A stretch of 30,988 nucleotides of DNA from a virus, in IMG/VR virus record IMGVR_UViG_3300022934_000101, positions 1-30,988 of that record; one strand, given 5' to 3'. The notes under the pieces were generated by a model. It did not search any database. It was not told the origin of the DNA and worked only from the letters and a program-made list of their open reading frames with translations. Of the stretch, positions 1-24,468 are shown piece by piece. Both the position numbers and the translations under genes were made by a program. Position 1 is the first letter of the stretch; the number at the start of each line of letters is the position of its first letter.

Positions 1-16
1 GGTTACCGCGCCGCCC

Positions 17-73: not shown

Positions 74-76
74 GAA

Positions 77-6289: not shown

Positions 6290-6304
6290 CGCGTTTTAGT
6301 CGTT

Positions 6305-6748: not shown

Positions 6749-6775
6749 AACACACACACAACACACTAAAATAAA

Positions 6776-7675: not shown

Positions 7676-7693
7676 TTCAAACCTTTTAACATG

Positions 7694-7721
7694 GGGGCGG
7701 GTTAATCGCCCGCCCCTTTTT
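7694..7721 (+). terminator. Intrinsic terminator after the major capsid gene
   Basis: A perfect 8-bp G+C stem, GGGGCGGG/CCCGCCCC, with a 7-base loop and a following T5 run, 18 bases after the capsid stop. It would end or attenuate head-gene transcripts, so downstream genes need readthrough or another promoter. Confidence 0.88.
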
Positions 7722-7740
7722 CATTTCCAGACTTGATAAA

Positions 7741-8091: not shown

Positions 8092-8093
8092 TC

Positions 8094-8591: not shown

Positions 8592-8600
8592 ATTTAGAAC

Positions 8601-10355
8601 ATGAGAAACAAACTTCAAACGATTTTGATTGGCATTGGCCTTTTGTGGGGGCCGATCCTTGCCAATTCCTCAACCATTAACACGATCAACGTTGGATCAT
8701 CGGCGAACGATGGAACAGGCGACACTTTGAGGGCCGCTTTCCAAAAAGTTAATTCCAATGACGCTGCGTTGAACGCTGACAAAGTTGAGAATTCAAACGG
8801 CAGCGCAAGCGGTTTGACGTTGTCGGGCACGACGACGATAGGCGGGACGCTCGACGTTTCCTCGGCAACAACCTTGACGGGCCTTGATACGTCCGACGAA
8901 ATCGCCGAGGGACTGACGCGGGGTGAGCCTTCGTTGTATTTCAATGGGGGAATTGTGCAAATAGGCACTGACAGTGGTTTGAATTTAACCGATGGCGCAA
9001 ACGAAGATTTTCCGCAGTCGCTATCGTTTTGGGTTAAAGCTGAAGACTGGACTGACGGCACTCAAGTTTTAGCTGAACGACATTCGGCCTCTCGTGGTTG
9101 GCAATTTTACATTTCAGGAAGCGGCGAGCTGACTTATTTAAAAAGTGATGGTACTGAAAACGTAAGTCGGGCGACTTCTTCACTGAGCGTTGAAAATGGA
9201 AAATGGTATCAAGTCTTTGTCACTGACCCAGGAATTGACGCTTCGACGCCTTCAAGCGTTGCTTTGGATGGAATCTCCATTTACGTGAACGGCGAAAGCC
9301 AAACGCTTGATGCCGCTTCATCTGCTACCTATGAAGGCATTGGAACGTCGAACACTCAATTAAACATCGGAGGTTTTGCCGCAGGTTCAGGAAATTTCCA
9401 AGGCGAAATTCGCAACGTCCAACTCTTCAACTCCGCCCTTTCCGCCGCCGACGTTGAAACGATCTACCGTTCGGGCGTTCCGTTTGAATTGAGTCAGGCT
9501 AGTGCGACGGCGGCAAATGTTTACGACTTTTCAACCGACGTAAACGGGTTTAGCTCTACCACAAACGGCACGGCCGCAGGAAATATCGATGCTGTTTCCG
9601 ATGGCGCAACTTCTAAGGACAATACGCTTCGGTTCACAGTGGACGGCACGTCGGGCAATCATGCGGTCAGCGATCCGGGGACATTCACAATTGGCAAGCG
9701 GTATCGTGTAAAGGTGGTTTACTACATTCCGAGCGGTCAAAGTAATGTGGATCAAATTGTTCTTCAATCCGGCGGCAACCCTGCATATTTCCCAAGTGGG
9801 ACGCTGGACACGGTCGGAACTTGGACCACTCAATGGGTTGACGGCCATGTAACCGGCGGCAGTGGAGCGTTCAACTTAGCAGCTTACGACGGCGGGTCTG
9901 CATCATTCCAAGATGCCGGTGCCGACGATGTGTTTTACATTGCTGAACTGGAAATTTATGAAGTCGGAGCAATTCTAGATCTGAACGCCGCAAATATTGA
10001 TCCAAGCTCAGCATCCGACAACCTGGTTGATGCCTCGGGAAATGGTTTCCACGGCACGCTCAACTCAATGGATATATCCAACATTGTCAATTTGTCTTCA
10101 GCGTTATCGGTGAACAATCCAAGCCCATCAGCGGATCAAGCTATCATTTGGGCGGGCAATTCGGGTTCCGAAGTTTTTAGCGTCGATGAAGATGGAGACG
10201 TTGAATTAACCGGAGATGTCATCATCACGAATTCAACAACGCCAGCAAGCGCGAGCGCGACCGGAACGGCCGGCACGGTCGCTTGGGATGCCAATTATAT
10301 TTACATTTGCACGGCCGCGAACACTTGGAAACGAGTCGCAATTTCAACCTGGTAG
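8601..10355 (+). CDS. Fibre-like protein with signal peptide, phage NDGTGD motif and LamG-like domain
   Basis: A 584-residue protein. Residues 1-22 look like a Sec signal peptide: basic start, hydrophobic core ILIGIGLLWGPILA, and probable cleavage after Ala22. Directly after it is the motif VGSSANDGTGDTLRAAFQKVNSND, a short element common near the N-terminus of phage tail-associated proteins. Residues about 115-290 form a concanavalin/LamG-like jelly roll (YFNGGIVQIG...SLSFWVKAEDW...WYQVFVTD...IYVNGESQT...EIRNVQLFNSALSAADVETIYRSG), a carbohydrate-binding fold. A second jelly-roll-like part and a short fibre-type end follow. Its place among neck and tail genes suggests a virion adhesin. An export signal on a protein assembled in the cytoplasm is odd. 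Confidence 0.75.
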   Translation: MRNKLQTILIGIGLLWGPILANSSTINTINVGSSANDGTGDTLRAAFQKVNSNDAALNADKVENSNGSASGLTLSGTTTIGGTLDVSSATTLTGLDTSDEIAEGLTRGEPSLYFNGGIVQIGTDSGLNLTDGANEDFPQSLSFWVKAEDWTDGTQVLAERHSASRGWQFYISGSGELTYLKSDGTENVSRATSSLSVENGKWYQVFVTDPGIDASTPSSVALDGISIYVNGESQTLDAASSATYEGIGTSNTQLNIGGFAAGSGNFQGEIRNVQLFNSALSAADVETIYRSGVPFELSQASATAANVYDFSTDVNGFSSTTNGTAAGNIDAVSDGATSKDNTLRFTVDGTSGNHAVSDPGTFTIGKRYRVKVVYYIPSGQSNVDQIVLQSGGNPAYFPSGTLDTVGTWTTQWVDGHVTGGSGAFNLAAYDGGSASFQDAGADDVFYIAELEIYEVGAILDLNAANIDPSSASDNLVDASGNGFHGTLNSMDISNIVNLSSALSVNNPSPSADQAIIWAGNSGSEVFSVDEDGDVELTGDVIITNSTTPASASATGTAGTVAWDANYIYICTAANTWKRVAISTW

Positions 10356-10368
10356 AAATTTCAAAACA

Positions 10369-10653
10369 ATGAGCGCAACAGAAAAAAAACTAGAACTATT
10401 AGAAGGAAAGCTAAAAGGCATTCATTCGGCTTTACGAAATCAAGCTTTACGATCCGAAGCTATTGCGGCTGTCGAAAAGTCGCTTGAATATTTAAGCGGC
10501 CGCCGGGCCGTTGGTGGAGAGATCGACGAGGCAAATGTTGCATCGCTTTATGCTGAGATCGCCCAGAAAGTTGATGCGGTAAACAATGAAGCGGCAATCG
10601 CTTACGAATCGCTCGCGGACATTCAATCTGAGATCGGTTCGATTTCTGAATAA
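10369..10653 (+). CDS. Small helical hypothetical protein
   Basis: A 94-residue protein, almost wholly alpha-helical and charged, with Leu, Ala and Glu spaced as in a coiled coil (KKLELLEGKLKGIHSAL). The ATG at 10369, shortly after the fibre-like gene, is preferred over an in-frame upstream start that would overlap that gene by about 140 bp. The stop shares one base with the next ATG (TAATG), so the small genes from here to 12197 form a tightly coupled chain. Function unknown; a fibre-associated or assembly chaperone role is a guess from position. Confidence 0.6.
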   Translation: MSATEKKLELLEGKLKGIHSALRNQALRSEAIAAVEKSLEYLSGRRAVGGEIDEANVASLYAEIAQKVDAVNNEAAIAYESLADIQSEIGSISE

Positions 10654-10826
10654 TGACAGATGATCCGCTAGACTATCTTGCGGATTCGACAACCGTTACA
10701 GTCGATCAAACGACAGTGACGGTTGATCTGCAATTTATCCCGCAAGTCAGCGGCAATGTCACTGTGTCGCAGGATTTCAAAACCAGAATAAGCGCAAGCG
10801 AGGATTGGAAAACCTCGATCTCCTAA
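10653..10826 (+). CDS. 57-residue protein with TVD-type repeats
   Basis: A short gene bounded by TAATG junctions at both ends, which is strong evidence that it is translated. Residues 11-25 hold two TVD steps (TTVTVDQTTVTVD). The C-terminal half reads like a few beta strands with a repeated D-F/W-K-T step (QDFKTRIS, EDWKTSIS). The TVD steps match those in the 60-residue gene at 8409 and in the protein starting at 11152. Function unknown; a small virion peptide is likely. Confidence 0.6.
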   Translation: MTDDPLDYLADSTTVTVDQTTVTVDLQFIPQVSGNVTVSQDFKTRISASEDWKTSIS

Positions 10827-11155
10827 TGGCTAATTATCAAATTCAAAGCGGCAACAACTTGCCAGTCATTCAACAGACGTTGAGCGATGCAAACGGGCCA
10901 ATTGATTTGTCGGGCGTTTCCTCGGTGTCTCTGAGGTTTAGAAAGAAAAACTCGGCAACGTGGCAAACCAAAACCGGGGAGATTGCGGGTGCTTTGGTTG
11001 GCCTTGTAAAATACGCGTGGACGAATACGGCGGACGTTCCGGAGGTTGGGGAATATTACTACCATTGGAAGATAGACTACGTTTCCGGTGACGTTTTGTC
11101 GGTTCCAAATACCGAGCTTGCCGAGTTTGAAGTCTTGGGGAATCAAGGACTGTGA
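10826..11155 (+). CDS. BppU N-terminal-domain-like tail or baseplate protein
   Basis: A 109-residue beta-sandwich protein. The whole length reads as the immunoglobulin-like domain found at the N-terminus of BppU and related phage baseplate proteins: LPVIQQTLSDANGPIDLSG...SVSLRFRKKN...GALVGLVKYAW...EVGEYYYHWKIDY...LAEFEVL. This domain attaches receptor-binding parts to the tail. Here it stands alone, without the fibre part that usually follows. The start at 10826 is chosen over an ATG seven codons upstream because it forms a TAATG junction. Its stop overlaps the next start (GTGA). Confidence 0.72.
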   Translation: MANYQIQSGNNLPVIQQTLSDANGPIDLSGVSSVSLRFRKKNSATWQTKTGEIAGALVGLVKYAWTNTADVPEVGEYYYHWKIDYVSGDVLSVPNTELAEFEVLGNQGL

Positions 11156-11532
11156 GCATTGGTGCAAACATAATTAAAAACGTCATGCGGGCAACGCGCA
11201 CCGTTCTTGACAAGCCGACGTTTACTTTTCGCAATCAGACGATTGCTTGCATTCCTTCAACCTCCGAACGCGGCATTGAAATTGCCATCGGTGGCAATGT
11301 CGGGACAATTGAGTTCTCTCTAATCGTCAATGTTGATGATTTCCCGAACGCAAGGACTTCCGATCAATCCACTATCACCGTGGACGCATCCACGTTAACC
11401 GCTGACGCATTCCCTGGTGCGCCTGATGTTGGAAACACTCTCATTCAGTCGGCGCGTTCCTATCGCGTTTTGCGGGTCAGTAAATCGGCAGACGGTTCGC
11501 ACTGGATTCTTGATTGTGGATCGGTCAACTAA
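11152..11532 (+). CDS. Head-closure or tail-connector-like protein (putative)
   Basis: A 126-residue protein starting with GTG in a GTGA overlap with the previous stop. It is beta-rich: IEIAIGGNVGTIEFSLIVNVDDF, then SYRVLRVSKSADGSHWILDCG. The last segment resembles the final strands of gpFII or head-closure proteins, in which a barrel is completed by a RVxxxxxxxDGxxWxLxC-type hairpin. The middle has two TVD/TAD steps shared with the small genes at 8409 and 10653. It lies just before the HK97 gp10-like gene, the usual position of a head-closure protein. Assigned from position and fold pattern only. Confidence 0.5.
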   Translation: MSIGANIIKNVMRATRTVLDKPTFTFRNQTIACIPSTSERGIEIAIGGNVGTIEFSLIVNVDDFPNARTSDQSTITVDASTLTADAFPGAPDVGNTLIQSARSYRVLRVSKSADGSHWILDCGSVN

Positions 11533-12197
11533 TGGCTGCCGAGATTAAAATTGAGACAAAGGAATTCCGGCGAGCTTTAGACCGTTACCTAGTCGAAACC
11601 TCCCAGGAATTATCAAAGGCGATAAACCGACGGATGTTTCACGTTTTAAAGAAGGCCGAGCAATACACGCCTAAAGCGGATCGTTCGGCGATCATGGCCG
11701 AGCTTGGGGCCGAAGATAAAATGGTCAAGAGCCGCAAGACCGGCGAGATCCGGCGGCGAGGTTTCAAGATCGCAAACACTAAAGCCGAACGAATTATTCA
11801 AGGATCGAGGCTTAAACGTGGCGAAAAACCTTTGCCGCGTAACGAAATAAAGAAGGAAGCTCGAAAGCTAATAGCCTCCCGACTTCGATCGGTCGGAACA
11901 CTTAAAGCAGGTTGGTATCATGCGAAGCTCGCAATGGCGAAAGCTGGCGGCGTATTTGGTGGAGGTAAAACAGGGCCGAGAGTCAAGCAAAGGTCATTTG
12001 GTAAGCCAGCAAAGGCCGGGTTAAACCCAACTGCAAAGGCCGTTTACCGTTTGCTGGCGAAAGGCCCAAACGTGAAAAGCATTCATCCGAAGGTTGAGCA
12101 AGCACTGGCGAGAGCTTACGCGGCCGAACGCGTGGAGATGGAGAGACACATGAGGGATAAGGCGCAAAAGGTCGCGGACAAATACAATTCACGTTGA
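11532..12197 (+). CDS. HK97 gp10-like tail-completion protein
   Basis: A 221-residue, strongly basic protein. The N-terminus (FRRALDRYLVETSQELSKAINRRMFHVLKKAEQYTPKADRSAI) has the long helix followed by A-x-x-x-T/P-type turn of the HK97 gp10/minor tail family. The C-terminal helix (EQALARAYAAERVEMERHMRDKAQKVADK) is also typical. These proteins sit between head-closure and tail-terminator genes and help complete the neck, as the order here predicts. It is longer than the usual 130-160 residues because of a basic insert rich in Gly and Lys (about 125-165). The start overlaps the previous stop (TAATG); an ATG six codons upstream is less likely. Confidence 0.68.
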   Translation: MAAEIKIETKEFRRALDRYLVETSQELSKAINRRMFHVLKKAEQYTPKADRSAIMAELGAEDKMVKSRKTGEIRRRGFKIANTKAERIIQGSRLKRGEKPLPRNEIKKEARKLIASRLRSVGTLKAGWYHAKLAMAKAGGVFGGGKTGPRVKQRSFGKPAKAGLNPTAKAVYRLLAKGPNVKSIHPKVEQALARAYAAERVEMERHMRDKAQKVADKYNSR

Positions 12198-12213
12198 CGG
12201 TTTTTGACTTTCA

Positions 12214-12723
12214 ATGGCTGAAGGCAACGACATTTTAAGCAAGGCAGAGGATGCGTTCTCTTCGCATATCATCTCCCAGGCTTTAACAATAAACGTTTAC
12301 GAAACAACTTACACGTTCGACGCCGACCGAGTTTACGCCGGACATTCGAGAGGTCCGAAAACGGCGGATCAACCGCTTAACCAAAATTCAACCGGGGAAA
12401 TTCTCATTCCCAGGATTCAATCAATCGCGGTTTCGGCCGAGCCTGACGAAGGTTTTGAGTTTGTCGGAAATTGGATTGTTGATTTCGACGTGATCTTAAC
12501 AACCAGCGCATTCGACACGGCCGAGAGCGATCACAAAGCGGCGTTTGCGAGTTTGTTGAATGTCATTTTACCAAACTCAATTTGCGACAGTTTAACGGCT
12601 GCCATTGATGACTACACTTGCCGTCAAAGGATGGTCGGCCCGCAAAGCTTTGAAGCCGAAGACGGCCATTACGTTTCGCTTCAAAAACTCTTCCTTTATT
12701 GCTCAGGCAAGGACTTTGCCTAA
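12214..12723 (+). CDS. Tail-terminator-like protein (putative)
   Basis: A 169-residue protein between the gp10-like and tail-tube genes, where the tail terminator usually lies. It has an N-terminal helix (DILSKAEDAFSSHI), then long beta strands such as IQSIAVSAEPDEG...NWIVDFDVILTT. A helix with the pattern DHKAAFASLLNVILPNSICDSL follows, which fits the ferredoxin-like fold of lambda gpU relatives, with a final strand VSLQKLFLYCSG. The family is too divergent for a firm call from sequence alone. No Shine-Dalgarno sequence precedes the ATG; instead TTGACGG overlaps the previous stop. Confidence 0.5.
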   Translation: MAEGNDILSKAEDAFSSHIISQALTINVYETTYTFDADRVYAGHSRGPKTADQPLNQNSTGEILIPRIQSIAVSAEPDEGFEFVGNWIVDFDVILTTSAFDTAESDHKAAFASLLNVILPNSICDSLTAAIDDYTCRQRMVGPQSFEAEDGHYVSLQKLFLYCSGKDFA

Positions 12724-12747
12724 CGTTGACAAATTCGCATTGATACT

Positions 12748-13215
12748 ATGGCAATGTCTGAAGTCGGTTTAGTAAGCATCGGAACATTTACCGGAGGGAC
12801 TCTCGGTATTACCGCATTGACGGGTTACGTGTCTCCGCGAATCGACGCTCTTTCAGTTAATCACAACAACGACGTTGCAATGGATACCGACGTTTCCGGC
12901 GACATTGTCAGGTTATCCGCTTCAGGCGAATATCTCGAATGTCAGATGACATTGATTCCCGATGGCACGACACAAGCAAACGCTTTGAAGGCTGGCGGAA
13001 AACCAGTTCCGCTTGCAGGCGTTACCATCACGGGCCTTCCGATTGTCGCAATGGGTTCTTGGTCAAATGCCTGGAATACCGATGGAGCGGATTCTCCTGA
13101 GAACCATCAATGGATTTACATTGAAGGTTCAAGCCGCATTGAAAAGCCTGACAGGGTTGTCCTAGATATGACGTTGCGCCGCTTCGTTAGTAGCAATCTT
13201 GCATCTGGTAAATAG
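12748..13215 (+). CDS. Major tail (tube) protein
   Basis: A 155-residue beta-rich protein followed by a chaperone-like gene and the tape measure, the standard setting of the tail tube gene. The sequence alternates beta strands and Gly/Ser turns and ends in VVLDMTLRRFVSSN, like the last strand of tube proteins. Two ATGs (12748 and 12754) could start it; I use the first. Many copies would stack around the tape measure to form the tail lumen. No sheath gene is adjacent, which supports a non-contractile tail. Confidence 0.65.
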   Translation: MAMSEVGLVSIGTFTGGTLGITALTGYVSPRIDALSVNHNNDVAMDTDVSGDIVRLSASGEYLECQMTLIPDGTTQANALKAGGKPVPLAGVTITGLPIVAMGSWSNAWNTDGADSPENHQWIYIEGSSRIEKPDRVVLDMTLRRFVSSNLASGK

Positions 13216-13224
13216 ATTGATGTT

Positions 13225-13800
13225 GTGGCTCATTGGTCAAAGTCAATTGAGCAACTATCCGCTCGGGTTCTCTTGTTTAATCTCCAGCCTTTAACGGTTG
13301 GTCAGCTATTCACACTTCACCAAATCGGATCGCCTTTTGTAGGCGAAAAAGACGAAGCAACGCTTGACGATTTGGCACTTGCCGTTGTTGCTTGTTCGGT
13401 TACTCCAAAGAGTTTCAATTCAATATCGAGGCGGTTTTGGTTTCCGATGTTTCTCCGGATCTGGGGCAGGTTGTGCTCTCATTTAGACTGGAACAAGGAA
13501 GCAAAAAGGTTCGTTGATTACATATCGGAGAATCTTGATTTTGCGGCAATCAAGGCATCGGATGACCAGAAGAAGACAAGAAAAGTTTTTGCACCAATCA
13601 CCTACCGCCTTTTGCTTTCACTTCTGAGATTTGGACACGATGAAAAGTCAGTATTAGAGATGAGTGTATGGGAAGCAAGTCGGCGTTGGCTTGTGATCAT
13701 GGAAGAAAGCGAACGAGTCGAATTGAGAGAAGACGACATTGATTTGATTGAACGGCTTTATTGCAAATCGAAAGAGGAGGTCTTGAATGGGGTTGTTTAA
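13225..13800 (+). CDS. Tail assembly chaperone-like protein
   Basis: A 191-residue, mostly helical protein between tail tube and tape measure, the position of tail assembly chaperones, which coat the tape measure before tube growth. It starts with GTG. It contains hydrophobic helical stretches (LSARVLLFNLQPLTVGQLFTL; SRRFWFPMFLRIWGRL; ITYRLLLSLLRFG) and a charged C-terminus. Most phages make a longer form by a frameshift near the end of this gene. I saw no obvious slippery heptamer, and the tape measure itself starts in the next frame 14 bp before the stop, behind a strong AGAGGAGG ribosome binding site. Confidence 0.55.
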   Translation: MAHWSKSIEQLSARVLLFNLQPLTVGQLFTLHQIGSPFVGEKDEATLDDLALAVVACSVTPKSFNSISRRFWFPMFLRIWGRLCSHLDWNKEAKRFVDYISENLDFAAIKASDDQKKTRKVFAPITYRLLLSLLRFGHDEKSVLEMSVWEASRRWLVIMEESERVELREDDIDLIERLYCKSKEEVLNGVV

Positions 13801-14887
13801 TTTAGTTGCAAAAATGTCATTGAATGATCGCGGTTTCCAGGCCGGGATCAAGCGCGTTGAGTCGCAATCAAACAAGTTTGCGAGATCTTTTCGGTCAAGC
13901 GTAGGCGGGGCAATTAGCGGCGTTTTTGCGGGTGCAGCAATTACAAACGCAACAAGGAACACAATTAAATACGCTTCAACAATAACAGACCTTCAAGCGA
14001 AAACAGGAATCGCGGGCAAGACTCTGCAAGCTTTTGATGTTGCGGGCAGGCAAGCCGGGTTGAGCCTTGAAGACGTAGCCAAATCGGTTCGCAATCTTGC
14101 GCGAGCGCAAAGCGATTTCAAAGCGGGTTTAGGTTCTGGTTTGGATGAATCTTTCAAGTTGCTTGGCGTTTCAATTGACGATTTAAACAACAAGAAAGCG
14201 GATGAATTGTTGCTTCAAATAGGCAAAGCGGCCGCATCAATGGACAACTCTCTTGATCTGCAAAACGCAATATCTGACGTTTTCGGAAGGCAAGGCCAGC
14301 AAATCTTGCAAGCTTTCAATAAAGACTTTGCCAACTTAGTTGAGACTCAAAACGAATCGCTTTTGATGTCAGATGAGCAACTTAACAAGTTGACTTTGCT
14401 TGGGGACAAAATGGCTGAGTTAGGTTTCAAAATTCAGCAAGCACTTGGCGGGGCTTTAAGTTTCGTAATTGATCGGGTCAATGATTTGAGTGATGGCCTT
14501 GCCATTATGTTTGGGAACGTTGCGATATTTGGAGAGTCTTTACTAAAAGGAAGGGGCCTTGATAAGAGCCTTGATGACGTTGCCGAATTTACAAACACGG
14601 TTCTTGAAAACAGGCAAAAAAGAGAAGCTGAATTAAAGAGGTCTCTTTCCACTGGAGCAACAAACATCATCCCGATCCCTGACGATTTAACCGAACCGGG
14701 TTCAGCAAGGGCGTCTTTGTCAGGTCAAAGAGTTCAAGCGGATTCATTGCGAAGGATTGGCGGATTCGCCGCCATTGGATCAAAAAGCGAAAACAGGGAT
14801 CGCCTAGTAAAAATGAATCAATTGCTTGAAAAGATTTCAAAATCGACCAAACAAACCGCCGACAACACGAAGGAGGACGCAATATGA
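13787..14887 (+). CDS. Tape measure protein, unusually short
   Basis: A 366-residue protein that sets tail length. It starts with the typical phrase LVAKMSLNDRGFQAGIKRVESQSNKFARSF, followed by a Gly/Ala-rich hydrophobic stretch (GGAISGVFAGAAI). Long helices then follow, including ASTITDLQAKTGIAGKTLQAFDVAGRQAGLSLEDV, a phrase common to phage tape measures. A second hydrophobic segment (about 217-250) could insert in the host membrane. At roughly 0.15 nm per residue it predicts a tail of about 55 nm, much shorter than lambda's. No muralytic domain is fused. It overlaps the next gene by ATGA. Confidence 0.85.
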   Translation: MGLFNLVAKMSLNDRGFQAGIKRVESQSNKFARSFRSSVGGAISGVFAGAAITNATRNTIKYASTITDLQAKTGIAGKTLQAFDVAGRQAGLSLEDVAKSVRNLARAQSDFKAGLGSGLDESFKLLGVSIDDLNNKKADELLLQIGKAAASMDNSLDLQNAISDVFGRQGQQILQAFNKDFANLVETQNESLLMSDEQLNKLTLLGDKMAELGFKIQQALGGALSFVIDRVNDLSDGLAIMFGNVAIFGESLLKGRGLDKSLDDVAEFTNTVLENRQKREAELKRSLSTGATNIIPIPDDLTEPGSARASLSGQRVQADSLRRIGGFAAIGSKSENRDRLVKMNQLLEKISKSTKQTADNTKEDAI

Positions 14888-15633
14888 TTCCTTACATTGG
14901 CGTTGGTCTTGCGTTAGTCAGAGTCGAGGAACAGTTTCGGGCAGGTGATACCGGGACGGTTTTCAATTACGAATGGGTCGGGAGCGAAGAGGCTTGCCGA
15001 AGCACGGCCGACGCTCTTAGGGGGTTGGGATTTGATAGCACGTTGAGCCAAGAGGACGGCAACTGGCGGTTGGTTGGCTTTATCACCGACCAAAGCGTGA
15101 TTCTTGGAGGAAGCGAGAATGTCGAGACAACCTGGGAGCTTGACCAGAATTTTTCGGAGATCGACTTTTTTCACATTGGAAAGGTTCACGACGCCTTGAC
15201 GACCGAACAAATTGAAGCGGTTAAAAAGGAGCTTGATAAAGGCGAGGACGGAAAAGAAACAGTATTCACCGGGGCGGCCGCTGAGATTCAGAAACAAGCT
15301 TACCGTTTGAAACGGCAAGGGGTTGAAAGCGTGTATCAAGCGCGGCCGGTATTGCGTCGGACGTTTACTTATTCGTCGCGATACGCGCAAAGGTCGGTCA
15401 TTGACTTATCTCCTAACCGATACACGACGGCGCAACTGGTTTCGCTGTTCAATGTTCCGGCCGTCGTTGCGGCTCAGTTGCCAGCCGATCCGGCGTTAAA
15501 ACCTCAAGACACGACTTTCGGTTGGATCGTGCAACGTTCCACAGCAACAACCGGCCTTCGATCTCAAACTATAAATGAAGTCACTGAATGGGTGTTCGCA
15601 GCATGGGCCGATGCTTTGTATGATTCGGTATGA
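14884..15633 (+). CDS. Probable tail-tip or distal tail protein
   Basis: A 249-residue protein translated from a strong AAGGAGG site inside the end of the tape measure gene, with an ATGA overlap. It mixes beta strands with a helical hairpin (TEQIEAVKKELDKGEDG...GAAAEIQKQAYRLKRQGV). The position directly after the tape measure is that of the distal tail protein, but I do not recognise the family, so the exact role is inferred from order only. It overlaps the next gene by ATGA as well. Confidence 0.5.
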   Translation: MIPYIGVGLALVRVEEQFRAGDTGTVFNYEWVGSEEACRSTADALRGLGFDSTLSQEDGNWRLVGFITDQSVILGGSENVETTWELDQNFSEIDFFHIGKVHDALTTEQIEAVKKELDKGEDGKETVFTGAAAEIQKQAYRLKRQGVESVYQARPVLRRTFTYSSRYAQRSVIDLSPNRYTTAQLVSLFNVPAVVAAQLPADPALKPQDTTFGWIVQRSTATTGLRSQTINEVTEWVFAAWADALYDSV

Positions 15634-15833
15634 CATCGCCTCCGCCAAAATCAAGCTCGCCTTCCAAGGTCGGGCGAATGTTTAACAAGCTCAGAGATTA
15701 CGCGGTAGCAATCACGCTGAAGAGCGGGCGAGGTTATAGGGTTAACAGGACGCCTACGGGGACAACCATTGAGTTCATTGATAAACGTGGCAAGGGCGGC
15801 GGCGAAGGTGGCGGGCGTGATGTATGGCTTTAG
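15630..15833 (+). CDS. Small basic hypothetical protein
   Basis: A 67-residue protein between two tail genes and overlapping both (ATGA at the start, 10 bp at the end), so it is very probably expressed. It has a Pro/Ser-rich start, a central strand-like section (YAVAITLKSGRGYRVNRTPTGTTIEFIDK) and a Gly-rich end. Function unknown. Its tight coupling to the 1002-residue gene suggests a partner or chaperone of that protein. Confidence 0.55.
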   Translation: MTSPPPKSSSPSKVGRMFNKLRDYAVAITLKSGRGYRVNRTPTGTTIEFIDKRGKGGGEGGGRDVWL

Positions 15834-18832
15834 ATTATTTAGTCAGCGGCGACAGTTTATCGGCCGATAAGCTGAACCTGATTTTTGCGGAGCTGGATCG
15901 CAAGCTAAAGATCAGGCTTTGCGGCAAGTCGCATCTTTTCGGCGGTGCATTGCCAGGGTTTAAGGGCAAGGTTTTCCAGTTTTATGAAGGCAACGCACAA
16001 TTGGTTGATTTCGACCTTGGCGCATACAATCACTCTGATTTTGAAGACATCGCAAATGGCGCGACGTTGGTTTCTAAGGACGAGAAAAACAAAATTGCAC
16101 TGGTTTCACCGCAAACCCCATTTGAAACGCTGGACGGGTCTTTACAGGCTCACACGCGAGTCATAGATGGCGAGGCCTATTGGATCAAGCCGGAAGCGCA
16201 AGCGCGATCCGAGCGCGTCCACAAACTTCGCGTTGCCGAGATCGTGGTTGAAAACAAAACGTCGATCACGATTCAAAAGGAGTGGAACAAATACAACTTT
16301 TTCAGGGTTCACAATTTCGGACGCACGCCAATTAGAGCAATATTCGAAGGCGAGACAACACGGCACGAATATGAAATTGAGGCTTTCGGATGTATAGCCG
16401 TCCGGCGGACCACGATTGATTCCGGTTATTCGGCTCCTTACAAATACCTGTTTGAAGCTCGAAGCGGAGATGGCCGCTTTTATCACATGGGCGGCGATGC
16501 CGAAGCTAACAACGTTGCCAATTTTGTCGGCCTTTTGCGTTGGCTTTCATTATTCGAGTTTGATCCGGCCGTTTTGCATGAAGTCACAGGTTACGAATCC
16601 ATTTTTGGAGACGGCCAAAACCAATGGACAAAACTCCGAGAGTTGATCACGCAAAAGGGGCGGTTTTTTCTAGTCAACAGAACCGATGGCGAGATCACTG
16701 AATTGACTTTTGAGAAACACGAAGACCTTGCCGGTCAACTTCAGCAATTCGGTATAGCCATAGAGGAAGACGAGAAAGGCGGGTTCACTTTATCGCCGCC
16801 AGTGGGCAAGGATTTTGACATTGTTACAACCGGCACAAACTTTCTGAAATCAGGCTGGAACATTTCGCCATTCCAAGCATTGCCCGCCTCAACAGAAAGC
16901 GAATTTGAAACCGAAGGGGCCGAGCTTTTAACCGTAACCGATACGAATGAAGAAGTCTTGGAATTGCAGCCGGACAATAAAGGGTTCCTAGTCGATCCGC
17001 AGAGGGTTTACTATCAACGAAAGCTATTCGCAAACAATGGGCATCCTAATCTGTCGGCGAATGGTTTGGTTAAAAATTTAAAAGACCAATATTTAACAAG
17101 CGACGATTTGTTTTTCTCAATTGGTCCTAATGGTTTTCAAGCTCCGATTAACCGCGAGCATGATTTCAGATTCCCGCATGGGCTGAAAGATGGCGAAACT
17201 TTAGCGGGCCGGTTTAGTCGGCAAAGTAAAACGCTAAAAACGGCCGAGGTTTTAAAGTTCAAATACGACGGTTGGCCTTCCAATGATTACATACCTGGGT
17301 TTGCCAATAGGCCCATTTATGCGAGGGAATCAAGGCGGTATGATTCAATTGAGCGAGAAGAAGAGGCAAGAATGTCTCTTGATGTTTTAAACGGCTACTC
17401 GTCGAAATCAATAGTTGCTCTGGGTGATGGGAAAGATTTTGAGTTTGCAACGATGCCAGCAACGGAGCGTTTAGAAATTCAAATTCAACAAATCCTTTCA
17501 AAAGGCGAAACGGCCGAACAAATAAAAAATCAAAGCAACCCAGACCACGTTTTACAATTGCCGCCCGATCAACTCGACGAGTTCTTAAAACATTACAGCG
17601 AGCCAGGGTGGTATGAGGCAAACCGTGACGATCTTTTCGGCTCGCAAACAAAACAAAATCCTGACGGGACAATTGGCCCAGTAGGCCCGCCACGTCAGCT
17701 CATGACGCCTTTATTGGTCGAAACCTATAACCATATCGCTTGGTTAATCAATTCGGTTACATGGGCAAAACCGTTGCAATTATGGGACATCTACCAAGAG
17801 CTTTCGCCAAGCCGAACGTTTGACTTTTACCCAGAGACATTTGGTTCACCGGTTAAGCCAACCGAAAGCGGGGTGCGCGACGATTTCGGAAATCAAACTT
17901 GGATTAGGCCCGCCGCTCAGTTCATGCGTGTGACGCCATACGATGAAATTTGGGATCGCGCAAATGACCTTGGCATCCCAATAAAAACCAAGAACGACTT
18001 GCCCGATTCATTTCACAATGCCAGAAGCCAAAGCGGGAGGATTACAGAATGGAAAATTGGGCCGGGTCATACGGTCAGCGAAAACAGAAAGCACGACAAT
18101 GCCGCTTTCGATTCCTATGACTTCCAAATCTACGGCAATTTGTACGAGCATTACTGGATTGATATCGCCGATATTAAGCGCGTTTCTGAATCGTTTGGAA
18201 TTGAGTTTTCTTTCGCCAGCCAAGGGGAGATTTATGAACTAAGAACGTTCAACCAAGAGGGGAATATTTACCTGATTGACTCATGGCAGGAAATAACAAG
18301 AGATTCGTATTTTGACACGGCTAACAAATGGACGCGGTTCGTTCCGGCGTCCAATACTTTCTATGGGGAATGGATCAGATCAATTGATCGGTTCGACGTT
18401 GAGCCAAGGTCTATCCCAGTCGAAAAGCTAATAAAAAACGTTGAGGTTGATGACTTTGATTTCATCAGGCAATTGGAAGCAGATTGGAAAATTCAAAAGC
18501 CCGATGCGGTTCGTCAAGTCGATGAGCAAAACGCTATCAATTGGGGCTATTTTTCCCATACATCAAGCTCTGTTGAAGTTTCAACTTGGGCGTTCGTTTC
18601 AGACTTGGCGTTTTTCAAACGGCAAGCAAACGCAAACGCATTAAAAATAAACCGAGACAATGTTGTGCGACACGGCTCGCCTTATGGAAAGCCATTGGAG
18701 GCAGTCGAACAAGACCTTGATGAGTCAAAATCGGTTAGCATATTCGGATCGGCAATGGTCATTTCCGCAAACCCTGGAAGATGGGGCGAGGTTTACGTTG
18801 TTGACCGAAGGGAGATTGAGATCGACGTCTAG
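15824..18832 (+). CDS. Large tail-tip or hub-like virion protein
   Basis: A 1002-residue protein, the last gene of the rightward tail operon. I recognise no single known family. It is a mix of beta strands and aromatic-rich segments. Many segments hold W/F/Y clusters (for example TPYDEIWDRANDLGIPI; NLYEHYWIDIADIKRV), and the N-terminus starts with a short helix pair (SADKLNLIFAELDRKL), a style seen in tail-associated proteins. Size, place after the distal tail gene and solubility suggest a central tail hub or host-specificity protein. Its TAG stop and the TAG of the convergent PAS gene share the palindrome CTAG at 18829-18832. Confidence 0.6.
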   Translation: MALDYLVSGDSLSADKLNLIFAELDRKLKIRLCGKSHLFGGALPGFKGKVFQFYEGNAQLVDFDLGAYNHSDFEDIANGATLVSKDEKNKIALVSPQTPFETLDGSLQAHTRVIDGEAYWIKPEAQARSERVHKLRVAEIVVENKTSITIQKEWNKYNFFRVHNFGRTPIRAIFEGETTRHEYEIEAFGCIAVRRTTIDSGYSAPYKYLFEARSGDGRFYHMGGDAEANNVANFVGLLRWLSLFEFDPAVLHEVTGYESIFGDGQNQWTKLRELITQKGRFFLVNRTDGEITELTFEKHEDLAGQLQQFGIAIEEDEKGGFTLSPPVGKDFDIVTTGTNFLKSGWNISPFQALPASTESEFETEGAELLTVTDTNEEVLELQPDNKGFLVDPQRVYYQRKLFANNGHPNLSANGLVKNLKDQYLTSDDLFFSIGPNGFQAPINREHDFRFPHGLKDGETLAGRFSRQSKTLKTAEVLKFKYDGWPSNDYIPGFANRPIYARESRRYDSIEREEEARMSLDVLNGYSSKSIVALGDGKDFEFATMPATERLEIQIQQILSKGETAEQIKNQSNPDHVLQLPPDQLDEFLKHYSEPGWYEANRDDLFGSQTKQNPDGTIGPVGPPRQLMTPLLVETYNHIAWLINSVTWAKPLQLWDIYQELSPSRTFDFYPETFGSPVKPTESGVRDDFGNQTWIRPAAQFMRVTPYDEIWDRANDLGIPIKTKNDLPDSFHNARSQSGRITEWKIGPGHTVSENRKHDNAAFDSYDFQIYGNLYEHYWIDIADIKRVSESFGIEFSFASQGEIYELRTFNQEGNIYLIDSWQEITRDSYFDTANKWTRFVPASNTFYGEWIRSIDRFDVEPRSIPVEKLIKNVEVDDFDFIRQLEADWKIQKPDAVRQVDEQNAINWGYFSHTSSSVEVSTWAFVSDLAFFKRQANANALKINRDNVVRHGSPYGKPLEAVEQDLDESKSVSIFGSAMVISANPGRWGEVYVVDRREIEIDV

Positions 18833-19410
18833 AGGAAGAACTTAACAAGGTCGAAGAAATCGACGCCTTGCTTGGCTAGCCATTGAAAGATTGCGAGCAG
18901 GATCAGACTACCAAGGAAGGGTCGCGCTTCAAATTCGGCCTTAATCGCTTTGACCATATCAACGCGGTTTTCGCCTGTTTTAGTTTTCGCTAAGAATTCC
19001 TTGTGGACGTTGCCAGTCATTTTCATGCCGCTAATGAATGCTAAAAAATCGCCTTGCTCAGTTGTTAATTTTTGAACCTGTAATTCAATGTCTATGAAAT
19101 CTTTTGCTTTCGTCATGTATGTTTTAAGCATGACGTAGGAATCAATTTCGCCGGACAAAACGCGATCAACCTGGCGTTGGTCGGCGTCCGCTTCTTCAAA
19201 ATCTGGAGTCAGTTTTTGCCATGTTAATTCATGCAACTCTGTTTCGGTAAAACCAAGAAGCTTTTGAAAAACGTTGTTCGCGAAAATGAAGGAGCCATCG
19301 GCCGAGACGAGAGCAATCGCGTGATTCAGGTTTCGCAAAACCTTTTCCCATTGTCCAAACCTCGCGAACAAGATTTGGATTCGTAATATGTCGCGCTCTC
19401 GTTGTTCCAT
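18829..19410 (-). CDS. PAS-domain protein with hydrophobic C-terminal segment
   Basis: A 193-residue protein. Residues about 25-135 read as a PAS domain: VLRNLNHAIALVSADGSFIFANNVFQKLLGFTETELHELTWQKLTP, then FIDIELQVQKLTTEQGDFLAFI, matching the two halves of the fold. PAS domains sense small molecules, redox state or light, or mediate dimerisation. No histidine kinase, cyclase or helix-turn-helix output domain is attached. The C-terminus (about 165-193) is hydrophobic (GSLILLAIFQWL, then FFDLVKFFL) and could anchor it in the membrane. It is the last gene of a leftward operon with fibre and lipoprotein genes, three bases after the fibre stop. Function unknown; a host-state sensor or superinfection factor is possible. 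Confidence 0.78.
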   Translation of the reverse strand: MEQRERDILRIQILFARFGQWEKVLRNLNHAIALVSADGSFIFANNVFQKLLGFTETELHELTWQKLTPDFEEADADQRQVDRVLSGEIDSYVMLKTYMTKAKDFIDIELQVQKLTTEQGDFLAFISGMKMTGNVHKEFLAKTKTGENRVDMVKAIKAEFEARPFLGSLILLAIFQWLAKQGVDFFDLVKFFL

Positions 19411-19413
19411 TCA

Positions 19414-22400
19414 TTACCAAGGGGTCGTTCCTCCTGTTATAACCGTGTACCAGCTATCGTGAATCCATTGAATCAACGCGTGAGAATCATTGTAATCCCA
19501 TTGACTAGAGCTTAACCCGGTCGCGCTGATTACGAAATTTGTGGCCGTCGTTGTTACGTGAATAATTGATTGCTCTCCAGCTGATCCGTTTGGAATGTTC
19601 AGCTGATAATGATCACCTGGGCTATTTCCTGATAAATCAATGTCATAGGCAACGCCTAAAGAGGCCGTGAAAGTGTAAGGATCTCCGCCCGATCCCGTTC
19701 CAGATGAAAAGCTTGATGTTGTTAAGCTTACTTCAGAAGAAATACCGCCACCGCCGCTTCCCGTATCATCCGTTGCCGGTGCCCATGCGCTACCATTCCA
19801 TTCCAAAACCTGACCCGAAGTCGGAGAGGTTGAGGAAACGTTTGCGAGGTCGGCAAGGTTGACGGTTCCAAGGTCGATCGTGATCGTTCCGCTACTTGTA
19901 ATTGGCCCGCCTGAAACGGATATCTTTGAAGACCCAGCCGATGCAGCAACGCTTGTCACGGTTCCGCTAGTTGGCGTTTGCCATTGTAGGCCTGTTGACT
20001 GTGCGGAGTTCACGGTCAAGACTTGGCCGTTAGTTCCGGCAGTTAGTTTGGCCAAAGTCGTCACGCCGGTGGCCGCTAAGATATCGCCTTTTGTGTACGT
20101 GGAATTGCCCGTTCCGCCCGCGTTCGGGGTTAGCGTCCCGGTGACTTGCGAAGCAAGGCTGATTTGACCCGATTGCGCGGAGAGATCTAGGTTGCCTTGG
20201 TTTATTCCTATCGTGGGATTGCCGCTTGCGCCGTTGCCGTTGGAAACGGTGATTGCGCCGGTTGCGGTAATAGTTCGAGCGGCCGCCGTTCCGGCTCCTG
20301 TTCGGGCAATTAAGCCATTCGAGGAAATACCGGCAATGGCGTTCAGGTCGGAGTCATAACCTTGAACATCCGATCCGATAGCAACGCCGAGGTTAGTTCG
20401 TGCGCCGCTTGCCGTTGTTGATCCAGTTCCACCGTTTGCGACCGCCAAGGTTCCGGTCATGTTGCCCACGTTGAGATTGGCTTCGCTTACGTCAATTGTC
20501 GGGTTTCCGCTTGATCCGTTACCGTTTGAAACAGTGACCTTCGTTGATCCGGCCGTGATTGTTCGAGCCGCACCGGTTCCCGCTCCGGTTCGCGCCCAAA
20601 GACCGTTTGACGCATTCGCCGCAAGCGCATCGAGGTCTGAATCAACATCGAGGGCGATGGTGCCGCTAGTGGTAATCGGCCCGCCCGATGGCGTGATAGA
20701 AGTATCCCCGCTGATGTTAATACTGGTCACAGTTCCAGACCCGCCGAGCGCGTCAATTTGGTTTTGAAGGTTTGAGGTTGCGCCGTTGAGATACGAAAAC
20801 TCGGTATTGTCTATGGTGCCGGTTCCGATGTTTGCGGCACTGATCCCCGTTGGCAGCATTCCCGTGGTTATAGATCCTCCAAGGCTTGCTATGTCGAAAT
20901 TGGATTCGGTCGCGTCTATTGTGATATTCCCGCTCACGCCATCACCGTTCGTTATCGAAATCCTTGAACTACCGGCCACAACGTCTCGCGTGGTGTAAGC
21001 ACTGGACCCGGTTCTAATCGTTACGCCGGTTCCGGTAATGCTAGGAAGGTCGGGCGATGAAACGTCAATCTCGGGCGTAATCAAACGCCATCGCGATGAA
21101 TTGCCGTCATAGACTAAAAGATTAACTTCATAACCTACCTCATCCGCGTTCGATTGCGTGACAATTCGATTCGCGGCCGTTGCTTCAGAACCGGATTGAT
21201 TGCCGAACGTCAGTTGGTAGCCTGAATCGTTTTGAATGATCAGAAAATCGCCAGCATTCCCGGCCACGATTCCATCAATCGACCAAGCGGCCGTTGGGCC
21301 TGAAAGCTTCCAATAAGTTTTTCCGCTGAGATCAACGCCGGAATTCGATCCATTGGCAAGCGATGAACTGGTTGACTGACCCAAACCTAAATCGCCCGAG
21401 AGCGTTATGTCGTCGGCAAGCGTGGCGGAATACCAGGTTCCATTTGTCACGGTTCCAATTGCGCCGGAATATGTGTTATTCCCGGCAAGGGTTGAGCCGT
21501 TGATGGTCGCATTTGTAATAGTTCCGCCTTTGAAAGTTCCGTTCGTCACCGTTCCAAACGTTCCGCTAAAACTTGAATCGCCGCCAATGGTCGCACCGTA
21601 AATTACCGAGTTGGTAATTTGCGCGAACGTATTAGTTGCCGTCCAAGTATTTGCCGATCCTAGTTGACCGTAAACATTGTCGGCCGTGGCTCGGTTCAAA
21701 ATGACCCAATCATCCGGATCAGAGAGCGATAGCGCATCGGCGGACCCGCTGCTATCGGTGGAGCGCAAGCTCCAATAACCATCATCATCAACGCCGATAT
21801 TGGCGATAGGGTTTTCGCCAGAGTCGTAGCTCTGAAGCGTTACGATGCCGGGAATGTGGTGACTTAGAGAATTGGTTCCTTGGATTGAGGCCAATGAAAA
21901 AACCTTGTAGCCGGTGATCGTTTGCGTTCCTCCGGTGGACACAAAATTGGTTAGCAACTGCGATCCGGCAGGAATTGAGTTTGTGGAATAGGTTCCAAGA
22001 TCGGAGGCAAGCAAACTGAACATGTTGGTTGCGGTCGATTGAACCGGCTCCATTGAACCTGGGACACGCACTAAGCGGCCGACGGTTGTCGTGTTCGTGG
22101 TCAAAGCTACCGTTGCCCAAGAGCCTGACGCCGTAACCGTCAAGGCCGCATCAACCGGGGCGGTGAGCTTAATAGAGGTCGAGGTTGGCTTCGTGATGGT
22201 TAAAAAGGGCGAAGTGAAAGGATAACTTAAAACGTGATCGAACAGCGCGTCATTATTCAGGCTTGTAGTTCCTACAATGCCGATTTCAGTCGATGCCGAT
22301 GATACGGATGTTCGCCACGTTCTGACATTGCCGTTCACGGTCAGCGTATCGCCCGCGCTTGGGTTACTTGTAACGGTTACAAGGGCCGTTATGCGGTCAC

Positions 22401-22452
22401 CTAAAGCCGGGACCGTGAGGAGGGTTAGCAAAAGAAAAGATAAAACTCTCAT
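19414..22452 (-). CDS. Large repetitive fibre-like protein with signal peptide
   Basis: A 1012-residue protein rich in Ser, Thr, Gly and Asn. Residues 1-18 are a classical Sec signal peptide (MRVLSFLLLTLLTVPALG). Several phage fibre-type repeats follow: TNGTF/TNGTW steps near 300-340, and three copies of a block like ARTGAGTAAARTITATGAITVSNGNG with SGNPTI endings (about 20200-20316, 20470-20613 and, weaker, 20886-21021). A typical GGTGSTTASGARTNLGVA element, common in tail fibres, is also present. It starts inside the end of the lipoprotein gene (ATGA overlap). The repeats say virion fibre; the signal peptide says exported. Both cannot easily hold for a cytoplasmically assembled tail, so its site of action is open. 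Confidence 0.82.
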   Translation of the reverse strand: MRVLSFLLLTLLTVPALGDRITALVTVTSNPSAGDTLTVNGNVRTWRTSVSSASTEIGIVGTTSLNNDALFDHVLSYPFTSPFLTITKPTSTSIKLTAPVDAALTVTASGSWATVALTTNTTTVGRLVRVPGSMEPVQSTATNMFSLLASDLGTYSTNSIPAGSQLLTNFVSTGGTQTITGYKVFSLASIQGTNSLSHHIPGIVTLQSYDSGENPIANIGVDDDGYWSLRSTDSSGSADALSLSDPDDWVILNRATADNVYGQLGSANTWTATNTFAQITNSVIYGATIGGDSSFSGTFGTVTNGTFKGGTITNATINGSTLAGNNTYSGAIGTVTNGTWYSATLADDITLSGDLGLGQSTSSSLANGSNSGVDLSGKTYWKLSGPTAAWSIDGIVAGNAGDFLIIQNDSGYQLTFGNQSGSEATAANRIVTQSNADEVGYEVNLLVYDGNSSRWRLITPEIDVSSPDLPSITGTGVTIRTGSSAYTTRDVVAGSSRISITNGDGVSGNITIDATESNFDIASLGGSITTGMLPTGISAANIGTGTIDNTEFSYLNGATSNLQNQIDALGGSGTVTSINISGDTSITPSGGPITTSGTIALDVDSDLDALAANASNGLWARTGAGTGAARTITAGSTKVTVSNGNGSSGNPTIDVSEANLNVGNMTGTLAVANGGTGSTTASGARTNLGVAIGSDVQGYDSDLNAIAGISSNGLIARTGAGTAAARTITATGAITVSNGNGASGNPTIGINQGNLDLSAQSGQISLASQVTGTLTPNAGGTGNSTYTKGDILAATGVTTLAKLTAGTNGQVLTVNSAQSTGLQWQTPTSGTVTSVAASAGSSKISVSGGPITSSGTITIDLGTVNLADLANVSSTSPTSGQVLEWNGSAWAPATDDTGSGGGGISSEVSLTTSSFSSGTGSGGDPYTFTASLGVAYDIDLSGNSPGDHYQLNIPNGSAGEQSIIHVTTTATNFVISATGLSSSQWDYNDSHALIQWIHDSWYTVITGGTTPW

Positions 22453-22751
22453 TCGATAATGTTTGTTTGGTCAACTGTTCCGGCGGTAGATGAAGATGAA
22501 AGCATCATTGCAAGCTTGGCAATGAGTTCGGATTGCTTCGCGGCAACTTCAAATCCTTGGGCTTGTTCGGACTTGTAACCCGAGACAATCAGACGAGAAC
22601 CGGCCGAGTCTTCAAACTCGATAGACTGAATGGCGCGAATGCTCCAAACGGGATCGACGCGTGAATATTCCCAACCGCTTGGAGTTTTAACCGTTGCAGT
22701 TGAGCAAGCCGGAAGAGGCAAGATGAATAATGCGAGTAAAAGGTATTTCAT
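22449..22751 (-). CDS. Small lipoprotein
   Basis: A 100-residue protein with a lipoprotein signal: basic start, hydrophobic core, and lipobox LPAC with Cys16 as the expected lipidated residue. The mature part is about 85 residues: a beta-rich section with aromatic residues (GWEYSRVDPVWSIRAIQSIEFE) and a helical end (SEQAQGFEVAAKQSELIAKLAMML). It overlaps both neighbours by ATGA. Phage lipoproteins are often outer-membrane spanin subunits or superinfection-exclusion proteins. No embedding Rz-like gene is present, so exclusion or a partner role with the neighbouring exported fibre is more likely, but this is inference. Confidence 0.75.
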   Translation of the reverse strand: MKYLLLALFILPLPACSTATVKTPSGWEYSRVDPVWSIRAIQSIEFEDSAGSRLIVSGYKSEQAQGFEVAAKQSELIAKLAMMLSSSSTAGTVDQTNIIE

Positions 22752-23407
22752 GCTGTTACAATGTTATCAATTGCGTTGCCGTTATCATCCACGCCGATTT
22801 CGCGAAGGTAAGTTCCGGATGGGCTTTGAAGAGTGGTCGTTCTTCCAGGGCCATTTACGCCGAGCGAGAGGAAACGATTATCTGCCATCGTTCGCGTGTA
22901 ATATTCCGACACGGGATCGGGAACATTCGCGGTTGAGGTTGGGTCAATCGGAGATTTAACGACTGTAATCTTCTGATTGTATATCGTGCGCCAGTTCGCA
23001 CCGTGGGAAAGCTGAACCTGGAAATAAAGATTGCTGATGCTGTTCGTTAGCGGGTCAAATTGCGAATTAAGTTCGGTTGTATTCAGGTTCAATTCCCCGT
23101 CAAAAAAGTTGGTTACGTTGTCAGGCGCAGCCGGGCCTGGCGTTGCCGTCCACGATGTGTCGAGGGTCGAAGCGGCAACGTTTGATTTCGCGTCGGCGAT
23201 ATACATTCGCAAGCCAAGCGAATCGACATCGACATCTTGAACGAACGGTGCAAAGCGGTTGCCGGTGGGGCGAATTGGAAATACTCGGAAAGGAACGGAT
23301 GAACCTTGGTAAAATATTTTCAGAGTCGATTCCGTGAGATTGGTTTTGCTCTGATAAAGCACCGAATTCTCAATGTCTATAAACAGGTCACAAGCTTGCG
23401 TTGCCAT
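22748..23407 (-). CDS. Fibre-attachment-like protein, first gene of the leftward operon
   Basis: A 219-residue soluble protein without signal peptide. The first 150 residues are beta-rich (CDLFIDIENSVLYQSKTNL; LKIFYQGSSVPFRVFPIRPTGN; LRMYIADAK), in the style of BppU-like or other adaptor domains that carry fibres. The C-terminal end (YYTRTMADNRFLSLGVNG...PSGTYLREIGVDDNGN) resembles fibre N-terminal segments, and IGVDD(N/D)G also occurs in the 1012-residue fibre (IGVDDDGYW). This suggests that the two proteins share a module. The ATG at 23407 is preferred over an in-frame TTG seven codons upstream. No Shine-Dalgarno sequence was seen. Confidence 0.65.
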   Translation of the reverse strand: MATQACDLFIDIENSVLYQSKTNLTESTLKIFYQGSSVPFRVFPIRPTGNRFAPFVQDVDVDSLGLRMYIADAKSNVAASTLDTSWTATPGPAAPDNVTNFFDGELNLNTTELNSQFDPLTNSISNLYFQVQLSHGANWRTIYNQKITVVKSPIDPTSTANVPDPVSEYYTRTMADNRFLSLGVNGPGRTTTLQSPSGTYLREIGVDDNGNAIDNIVTA

Positions 23408-23421
23408 TTGAGAATTTGAAA

Positions 23422-23454
23422 CCGTCAACGCGCTTGACGTTTTACCGTTGACGG
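23422..23454. promoter_or_regulatory. Inverted repeats CCGTCAACG/CGTTGACGG upstream of the leftward operon
   Basis: A perfect 9-bp inverted repeat (23422-23430 and 23446-23454) lies 15-47 bases upstream of the leftward operon start at 23407. A third TTGACG at 23434-23439 sits between the arms and can pair with the left arm instead. The nested GTTGAC boxes look like an operator. TTGACG could also serve as a -35 element, but I found no matching -10. Confidence 0.45.
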
Positions 23455-23514
23455 CCTAACATCCTTGCAACGTTTCGCTACGTCCATAGCACGTTTTGTT
23501 TCCTTACCTCGAAG

Positions 23515-23548
23515 CCCGCTCCTGTTTAAGGGGCGGGTCTTTCCTTTT
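23515..23548 (+). terminator. Intrinsic terminator in the control region, rightward
   Basis: An 8-bp stem CCCGCTCC/GGGGCGGG (one G-U pair) with a 7-base loop, followed by a pyrimidine/T-rich stretch TCTTTCCTTTT. It reads rightward, though no rightward gene lies just upstream. It may stop antisense transcription coming from the tail operon before the early genes. The stem composition and loop length match the capsid terminator. Confidence 0.65.
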
Positions 23549-23569
23549 CCGGCTCCGAAAAGTTTTTTC

Positions 23570-23610
23570 AAAAAAACACTTGCCGAGTTCGCCTTGCATA
23601 TATTAGGTTA
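23570..23610 (+). promoter_or_regulatory. Candidate promoter for the rightward early genes
   Basis: An A/T block (T6 then A7, 23563-23576) is followed by TTGCCG at 23580 and TATATT at 23599-23604, about 60 bases before the first early ATG. The TATATT is a reasonable -10. The distance to TTGCCG (13 bases) is too short for a standard -35, and ACACTT at 23576 fits the spacing but not the consensus. Only the place and the -10 support this call. Confidence 0.35.
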
Positions 23611-23664
23611 AGCCCAATGAGAGCGGGCGCGGTTGCTCGCTAGAAATCAAAAACCGAAAAAAAT

Positions 23665-24135: not shown

Positions 24136-24468
24136 ATGAATATCAAAGATTTCCAAAACGCTCTTTGGGAGATCACCGAGGACGTTAGCGGATTTGAGCA
24201 AAAACAGCTCATTTCCAAGAGCAAAAGGTGCTTACACCTTTGTTGGGCGCGTCACTGCGCGATGGCGGCGGCCCGCGAATGCGGATTAACGCACACCGAA
24301 GTCGGTGCGCTGTTCAAGCGGGATCACTCCGCCTGTGTGCATTCCTACCAAGTCTTCAAACACAACAAAGCACCTTCGCTTATTGCGGAGGGGTGGAAGG
24401 ACGAAATTTTGAACCGCCTGACAAACGCGGTTTTACAAGCAAACAAAACGAGAAAGAAAAGCAAATGA
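24136..24468 (+). CDS. Stand-alone DnaA domain IV-like DNA-binding protein
   Basis: A 110-residue protein. Residues about 28-75 match the C-terminal DNA-binding domain of the initiator DnaA (Bac_DnaA_C). There is a basic stretch SKSKRCLHLCWARHCAMAAARECGLTHTEVGALF, and then RDHSACVHSYQV, the counterpart of the DnaA signature RDHSTVxHA. The AAA+ ATPase part of DnaA is absent; length fits one domain IV. Such a protein could bind DnaA boxes as a phage initiator accessory, or block host DnaA. It is the first of the replication and recombination genes, coupled to the next by ATGA. No clear DnaA-box consensus was seen nearby. The start ATG follows a strong hairpin. Confidence 0.75.
   Translation: MNIKDFQNALWEITEDVSGFEQKQLISKSKRCLHLCWARHCAMAAARECGLTHTEVGALFKRDHSACVHSYQVFKHNKAPSLIAEGWKDEILNRLTNAVLQANKTRKKSK

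Follow-up and report, generated by a model that had tools for sequence, protein, structure and literature searches.

A leftward gene block beside the tail genes of a P8625-like siphophage: a probable inverted attachment module with a tail-fibre-type protein predicted to be exported

The linear IMG/VR virus record IMGVR_UViG_3300022934_000101, whose 30,988 bases are the window analysed here, carries four leftward genes between two rightward gene blocks (Table 1). The original prediction, made from the letters alone, had described these genes as an operon of exported proteins at 18829-23407, and four coupled leftward open reading frames (ORFs), here named ATT, LIPO, FIBRE and PAS_TM, do lie there. 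ATGA overlaps join ATT to LIPO and LIPO to FIBRE, and only 3 nt lie between the FIBRE stop codon and the ATG of PAS_TM, so that a single transcript is likely for all four genes. At its far end the block meets the rightward gene g1002, which is convergent with PAS_TM; the two stop codons overlap by 4 nt at 18829-18832. Foreign cargo was considered and rejected, the GC and GC3 of the four genes matching those of the rest of the genome, and a defence-gene reading was likewise set aside with no PADLOC match. We address here the identity of this block and the export signal carried by its tail-fibre-type product.

Table 1. Positions of the leftward genes, the second signal-bearing fibre, the putative expression signals and the flanking gene blocks in the window.
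Feature	Position	Strand	Description
ATT	22748..23407	-	219 aa, tail-tip / baseplate adaptor-like; Ig-like N-terminal domain about 3-154; no signal peptide
LIPO	22449..22751	-	100 aa, lipoprotein; lipobox LPAC; 85-aa mature part
FIBRE	19414..22452	-	1012 aa, repetitive tail-fibre-type; type-I-like signal peptide residues 1-18; GGTG...TTASGARTNLG motif
PAS_TM	18829..19410	-	193 aa; one PAS domain about 21-127; borderline C-terminal membrane helix about 165-183
Second signal-bearing fibre-type protein	8601..10355	+	584 aa; signal peptide, NDGTGD N-terminal module and LamG domain; inside head/tail operon
Divergent intergenic region, ATT / rightward g83 (23665)	23408..23664		presumed promoter region from gene layout
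CGTTGAC start-linked motif	23424..23430	-	23 nt upstream of ATT; common to scaf147, g169 and the tail-tube gene
Terminator-like hairpin	23514..23538	+	10 bp stem, U-rich tail; -21.2 kcal/mol, z -3.05; rightward transcription; upstream of leftward operon
Rightward gene block, terminase to tail	77-18832	+	
Second rightward block	from 23665 onwards	+	Sak4-like annealing protein, helicase, methyltransferase, RuvC

The phage can be classed, by its homologous major capsid protein (MCP) and its syntenic head and tail genes, as a P8625-like siphophage. The MCP shares 52.7% identity with that of P8625 over 99% of its length, the terminase is distantly related to that of P8625 (about 22%), and 34 further MCP relatives are present in IMG/VR. 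It is ATT that ties the leftward block to other phages. Homologues of ATT residues 6-183 occur in 7 phage relatives, to which a profile scan adds about 20, and in the relatives they lie directly after the tail genes and on the same strand, with a gene for a fibre or LamG-like protein next and genes for small membrane proteins after it; the relative L069, for example, has the gene order ATT, fibre, 58-aa transmembrane (TM) protein, 67-aa lipobox protein and M15 endolysin. The ATT homologue is on the structural strand in every one of the 13 distinct relatives whose loci also hold structural genes, and because of this synteny the block is read as an attachment module and not as a moron. Nor is it an insertion, a homologous module filling its place in the relatives. 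The ATT of the window adjoins the tail genes as well, but on the opposite strand, which looks like an inversion of the module seen in this genome only, among the relatives compared. The placement against the tail operon that had been claimed for the block thus stands as a matter of strand, and appears to be a trait of one genome. FIBRE contributes a further tie: its residues 379-459 share homology with the C-terminal part of ATT in the relatives, indicating that domains have moved between the two proteins. An ATT homologue was undetectable in P8625, and a profile comparison of ATT with P8625 gp22 and with the receptor-like protein of L059 gave no match. Scans for close relatives with ATT, PAS_TM and the terminase returned nothing new except one identical contig, and with FIBRE only partial repeat matches.

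The predicted structure of ATT points in the same direction. An AF2 model built from 18 sequences has a pLDDT of 60.8, with 70-81 in the core. The top five Foldseek matches of this model are phage tail-tip or baseplate proteins (E 8.6e-5 to 1.4e-3), led by the T5 and DT57C tail tips, and VIA-align gave, for a model of modest confidence, Z scores of 6.0-8.4 to neck, T5, DT57C, TP901-1, 80alpha and NF5 parts, BppU-type domains among them. PapD/FimC-type pilus chaperones can be aligned with the model too (Z 6-7), a match that was taken to reflect a common Ig-like fold only. The homologues, the synteny and the modest model are together in keeping with the soluble attachment-like protein that had been predicted at this position.

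FIBRE matches the structural protein family phrog_697 (E 2.5e-20) and has a repeat motif at 20387-20433, and both its motif and its composition are those of a GGTG-type tail fibre. It departs from such fibres, which have no signal peptide and are assembled in the cytoplasm, at its N-terminus: the sequence MRVLSFLLLTLLTVPALG, immediately followed by D19, has the n-h-c layout of a signal peptide, with cleavage predicted before D19. No credible signal peptide is present in any of 107 GGTG-motif fibres that come from other IMG/VR contigs and are complete at the N-terminus, the one call returned by the scorer being an artefact of an upstream TTG start; the two calls among 208 fibre-like ORFs on unrelated contigs were both upstream-start artefacts. 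The caller behind these counts is a simple script, not SignalP, and the fibre sample includes near-duplicates. The counts agree with the earlier claim that the 1012-residue fibre carries a signal which ordinary fibres lack, and no precedent for signal peptides on virion fibres was found in a literature that was covered in part. Neither a PEP-CTERM motif nor a hydrophobic C-terminal anchor was found on FIBRE; a periplasmic location is therefore expected rather than surface display, unless another system moves the protein, and the suggestion of an adhesin shown on the host surface is not supported. No homologue of the FIBRE N-terminal domain was found in the relative loci compared, and the same is true of LIPO and PAS_TM.

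Export signals are not peculiar to the leftward operon, given a second signal-bearing fibre-type protein in the forward virion operon. It starts with MRNKLQTILIGIGLLWGPILA and continues with an NDGTGD module and a LamG domain (Laminin_G_3, E 6e-17; phrog_17312 tail protein, E 1e-11). The relative L032 has, downstream of its head genes, a pair of fibre genes joined by ATGA (4366-7167 and 7164-8381); both encode a protein with a signal peptide, and the product of the first also holds the NDGTGD module. A GDSL/SGNH-hydrolase-like stretch was recognised in that first protein by eye only. In all 15 other copies of the module, all of them on contigs from bacteria or metagenome-assembled genomes, it begins a few residues at most from the initiator Met, so that in the window and in L032 a signal would have been placed ahead of a fibre module that is normally N-terminal. 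This predicted arrangement is the most surprising result of the analysis.

The two small genes of the block are less readily placed. LIPO has a classic lipobox, LPAC, in keeping with the lipoprotein originally predicted, and its gene lies directly between ATT and FIBRE, as a small lipoprotein at an attachment locus. No Pfam, NCBIfam or PADLOC match was obtained for it, and its PHROG hit is weak (E 0.034). Lipobox proteins at the corresponding place in the relatives belong to the lysis cassette, the one in L069 adjoining the M15 endolysin, and in the window, a possibly incomplete contig, neither an inner spanin nor an endolysin was recognised. LIPO could be an exclusion factor of the Cor/Llp type or, equally, a lysis lipoprotein. 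As to the PAS-membrane protein of the original prediction, the PAS domain of PAS_TM exceeds the cut-offs of both TIGR00229 (E 1e-9; 38.6 bits against 22.9) and Pfam PAS_4 (6.8e-6), whereas the membrane helix, with a mean Kyte-Doolittle value of 1.47 over 19 residues, is only borderline. The single-sequence model of PAS_TM (pLDDT 47) is too poor to use. Across the whole window neither an endolysin nor a holin was recognised; either both are novel or the contig lacks them.

Several sequence features bear on how the block might be expressed. A promoter scan of the intergenic region upstream of ATT gave no more than chance. No match to an Rfam RNA was obtained. The terminator-like hairpin in that region comes from a scan that found, overall, fewer such sites than in shuffles, and no terminator hairpin was found at the convergent stop codons (18829-18832); with a hairpin at 23514-23538 and none at 18832, the rightward structural (late) transcript may extend, in antisense, over the entire leftward operon. 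GTTGAC is located 20-25 nt upstream of five genes (scaf147, g169, the tail-tube gene, ATT and FIBRE), a pattern reached by about 1% of shuffles when 6-mers are considered; for the longer CGTTGAC, shared by four genes, the figure among 7-mers is 1/300. The motif hints weakly at an expression of ATT and FIBRE similar to that of virion genes. In the relatives, TTGACA stands 10-19 nt before start codons at 40 of 54 sites, a concentration not seen in unrelated phages, and TTGACA/GTTGAC could possibly be a group-specific translation or expression signal. Start-linked sites of this kind were noted at 6284, 12192, 12724 and 23430 of the window and in the relatives L012-L081.

We propose that the leftward block is probably the host-attachment module of this phage group, inverted as a unit, and that FIBRE is exported by Sec. 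ATT would be a cytoplasmic component of the tail tip or baseplate, and FIBRE a protein of tail-fibre type that gained a Sec signal peptide, as the forward fibre of the window and the two fibres of L032 would have done; in part of the phage group, some fibre proteins would then cross the inner membrane. LIPO would be anchored in the envelope and would either serve in lysis or, like Llp, Cor and Rtp45, act on the receptor from its inner side. The final gene of the operon, at the place taken by holin-like genes in the relatives, is PAS_TM; its product probably sits in the membrane and carries a sensory PAS domain. In the periplasm, where it presumably stays, FIBRE may mask the receptor, or be kept in reserve and loaded onto virions at lysis; any purpose given to its export signal is a guess. 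A broader proposal, that a tailed-phage group routinely exports some of its fibres through Sec, either shielding or occupying receptors from the periplasm or storing the fibres outside the cytoplasm until lysis, is put forward only tentatively, as possible but doubtful.

Several points weigh against the proposed inverted module with an exported fibre. LIPO, FIBRE and PAS_TM lack full-length homologues, and the block is tied to the relatives by ATT, one FIBRE domain and position. The pLDDT of the ATT model is modest, and Z scores near 8 can come from a common Ig-like fold. The signal peptides rest on the simple script rather than on SignalP or experiment. A true virion fibre, moreover, should not need export, and a protein that is both of virion type and exported is awkward.

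The signals themselves are real, and on such fibres they are rare; to this extent the reading of the block as an export operon stands. What they are for can be explained in more than one way. Superinfection exclusion, one of the two options in the original prediction, would have LIPO, with or without the exported FIBRE, made during infection and acting from the periplasm to block the receptor of the phage itself; progeny would then not be trapped by infected cells or debris. The presence of a small lipoprotein in one operon with attachment genes fits a locus known from small coliphages, in which superinfection-exclusion factors are kept beside the genes for receptor-binding proteins (PMC11990801), and in the cases of T5 Llp and Rtp45 receptor binding is blocked by a periplasmic lipoprotein (PMC9586334, PMC12685063). 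LIPO, however, matches no known exclusion or defence family by sequence, the lipobox proteins at the corresponding place in the relatives sit in the lysis cassette, and nothing shows FIBRE reaching the surface; we consider this explanation unlikely. The same neighbourhood in the relatives, with a fibre, a small TM protein, a lipobox protein and an endolysin, favours an ordinary late fibre and lysis module that has been inverted, in which LIPO is a lysis lipoprotein, PAS_TM is the holin and the N-terminus of FIBRE is an element contacting the virion or the membrane, unless translation starts further downstream. An in-frame GTG at FIBRE codon 39 and the module-type N-terminus of the forward fibre are in line with it. 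Yet both window fibres and both L032 fibres show a full n-region, an h-region and a short c-region, absent from the 107 other fibres, an ATGA couples the FIBRE start codon to LIPO, and a lysis cassette is unproven where no endolysin is recognised in the window; we give this account a rather low probability.

Lysogenic conversion, the other option of the original prediction, fares worse. A block expressed from a prophage and showing a fibre-like adhesin on the host surface would accord with the orientation opposite to the structural genes and with the export signals. No integrase was found among the window proteins scanned (the contig being linear and possibly incomplete), and P8625, the nearest cultured relative, was reported to be lytic, with a signal peptide in none of its proteins (PMC4642752). 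The position of the block and the ATT homologue are also those of the relatives' late module, which is on the structural strand in all 13 that were scored, and FIBRE has neither of the features expected of a surface-anchored protein that were sought at its C-terminus. This scenario is accordingly regarded as highly improbable.

The usual view is that tail fibres are both synthesised and assembled inside the cytoplasm. Fibre export by Sec, if true, would represent a novel use of fibres by a phage: with signal peptides on four fibre-type proteins from a pair of related phages, and with two of these signals ahead of a module that is elsewhere N-terminal, some phages would be deploying fibres in the host envelope. 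Such export is relevant to superinfection exclusion, to receptor masking and to the late assembly of virions, and it concerns a phage group that infects a bacterial phylum with very few cultured phages.

Other features of the window were noted in passing. A leftward gene at 2395-2994 encodes a 199-aa protein resembling LmbU-family transcriptional regulators (E 5.5e-13, under the curated cut-off); it pairs with 2987-3448, forming a second leftward pair, and has homologues in G006 and G014. The product of a small rightward gene at 24136-24468 has a DnaA C-terminal DNA-binding domain (Pfam E 1e-8) and may regulate replication. At 8409-8591 there is a 60-aa ORF with an odd NxVQ-type repeat (MSNLVQRNNLAQECNLFQEPNIVQVCNIVQ...). 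Positions 1-7835 of another IMG/VR contig, L006, are identical to 1-7835 of the window, from the same first base, and this shared start suggests a genome end or a common assembly break; no terminal repeat was found in the linear window.

Compared with known systems, the window is closest in overall plan to P8625 (NC_029047), a Verrucomicrobia phage of similar size and with a similar gene order from terminase to tail; all 52 genes of P8625 are on a single strand, whereas the window has a leftward block. The tail-tip or BppU-N baseplate proteins of T5, DT57C, TP901-1 and 80alpha have the Ig-like fold predicted for ATT, but share less than 15% identity with it, and ATT is opposite in strand to its own tail genes. 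Phage tail fibres with the GGTG/TTASGARTNLG repeat resemble FIBRE in motif and composition and differ in lacking the signal peptide that FIBRE has. Fibre proteins with the NDGTGDxLR module provide a second such contrast, the signal peptide preceding the module in the forward fibre of the window and in L032 4366-7167, whereas the other copies start with the module. As with T5 Llp, T1-family Cor and Rtp45, LIPO is a small lipobox protein among attachment genes; family searches, which involved no pairwise comparison, detected no sequence similarity between it and these fast-diverging proteins, and, unlike them, LIPO is encoded in one apparent operon with a signal-bearing fibre.

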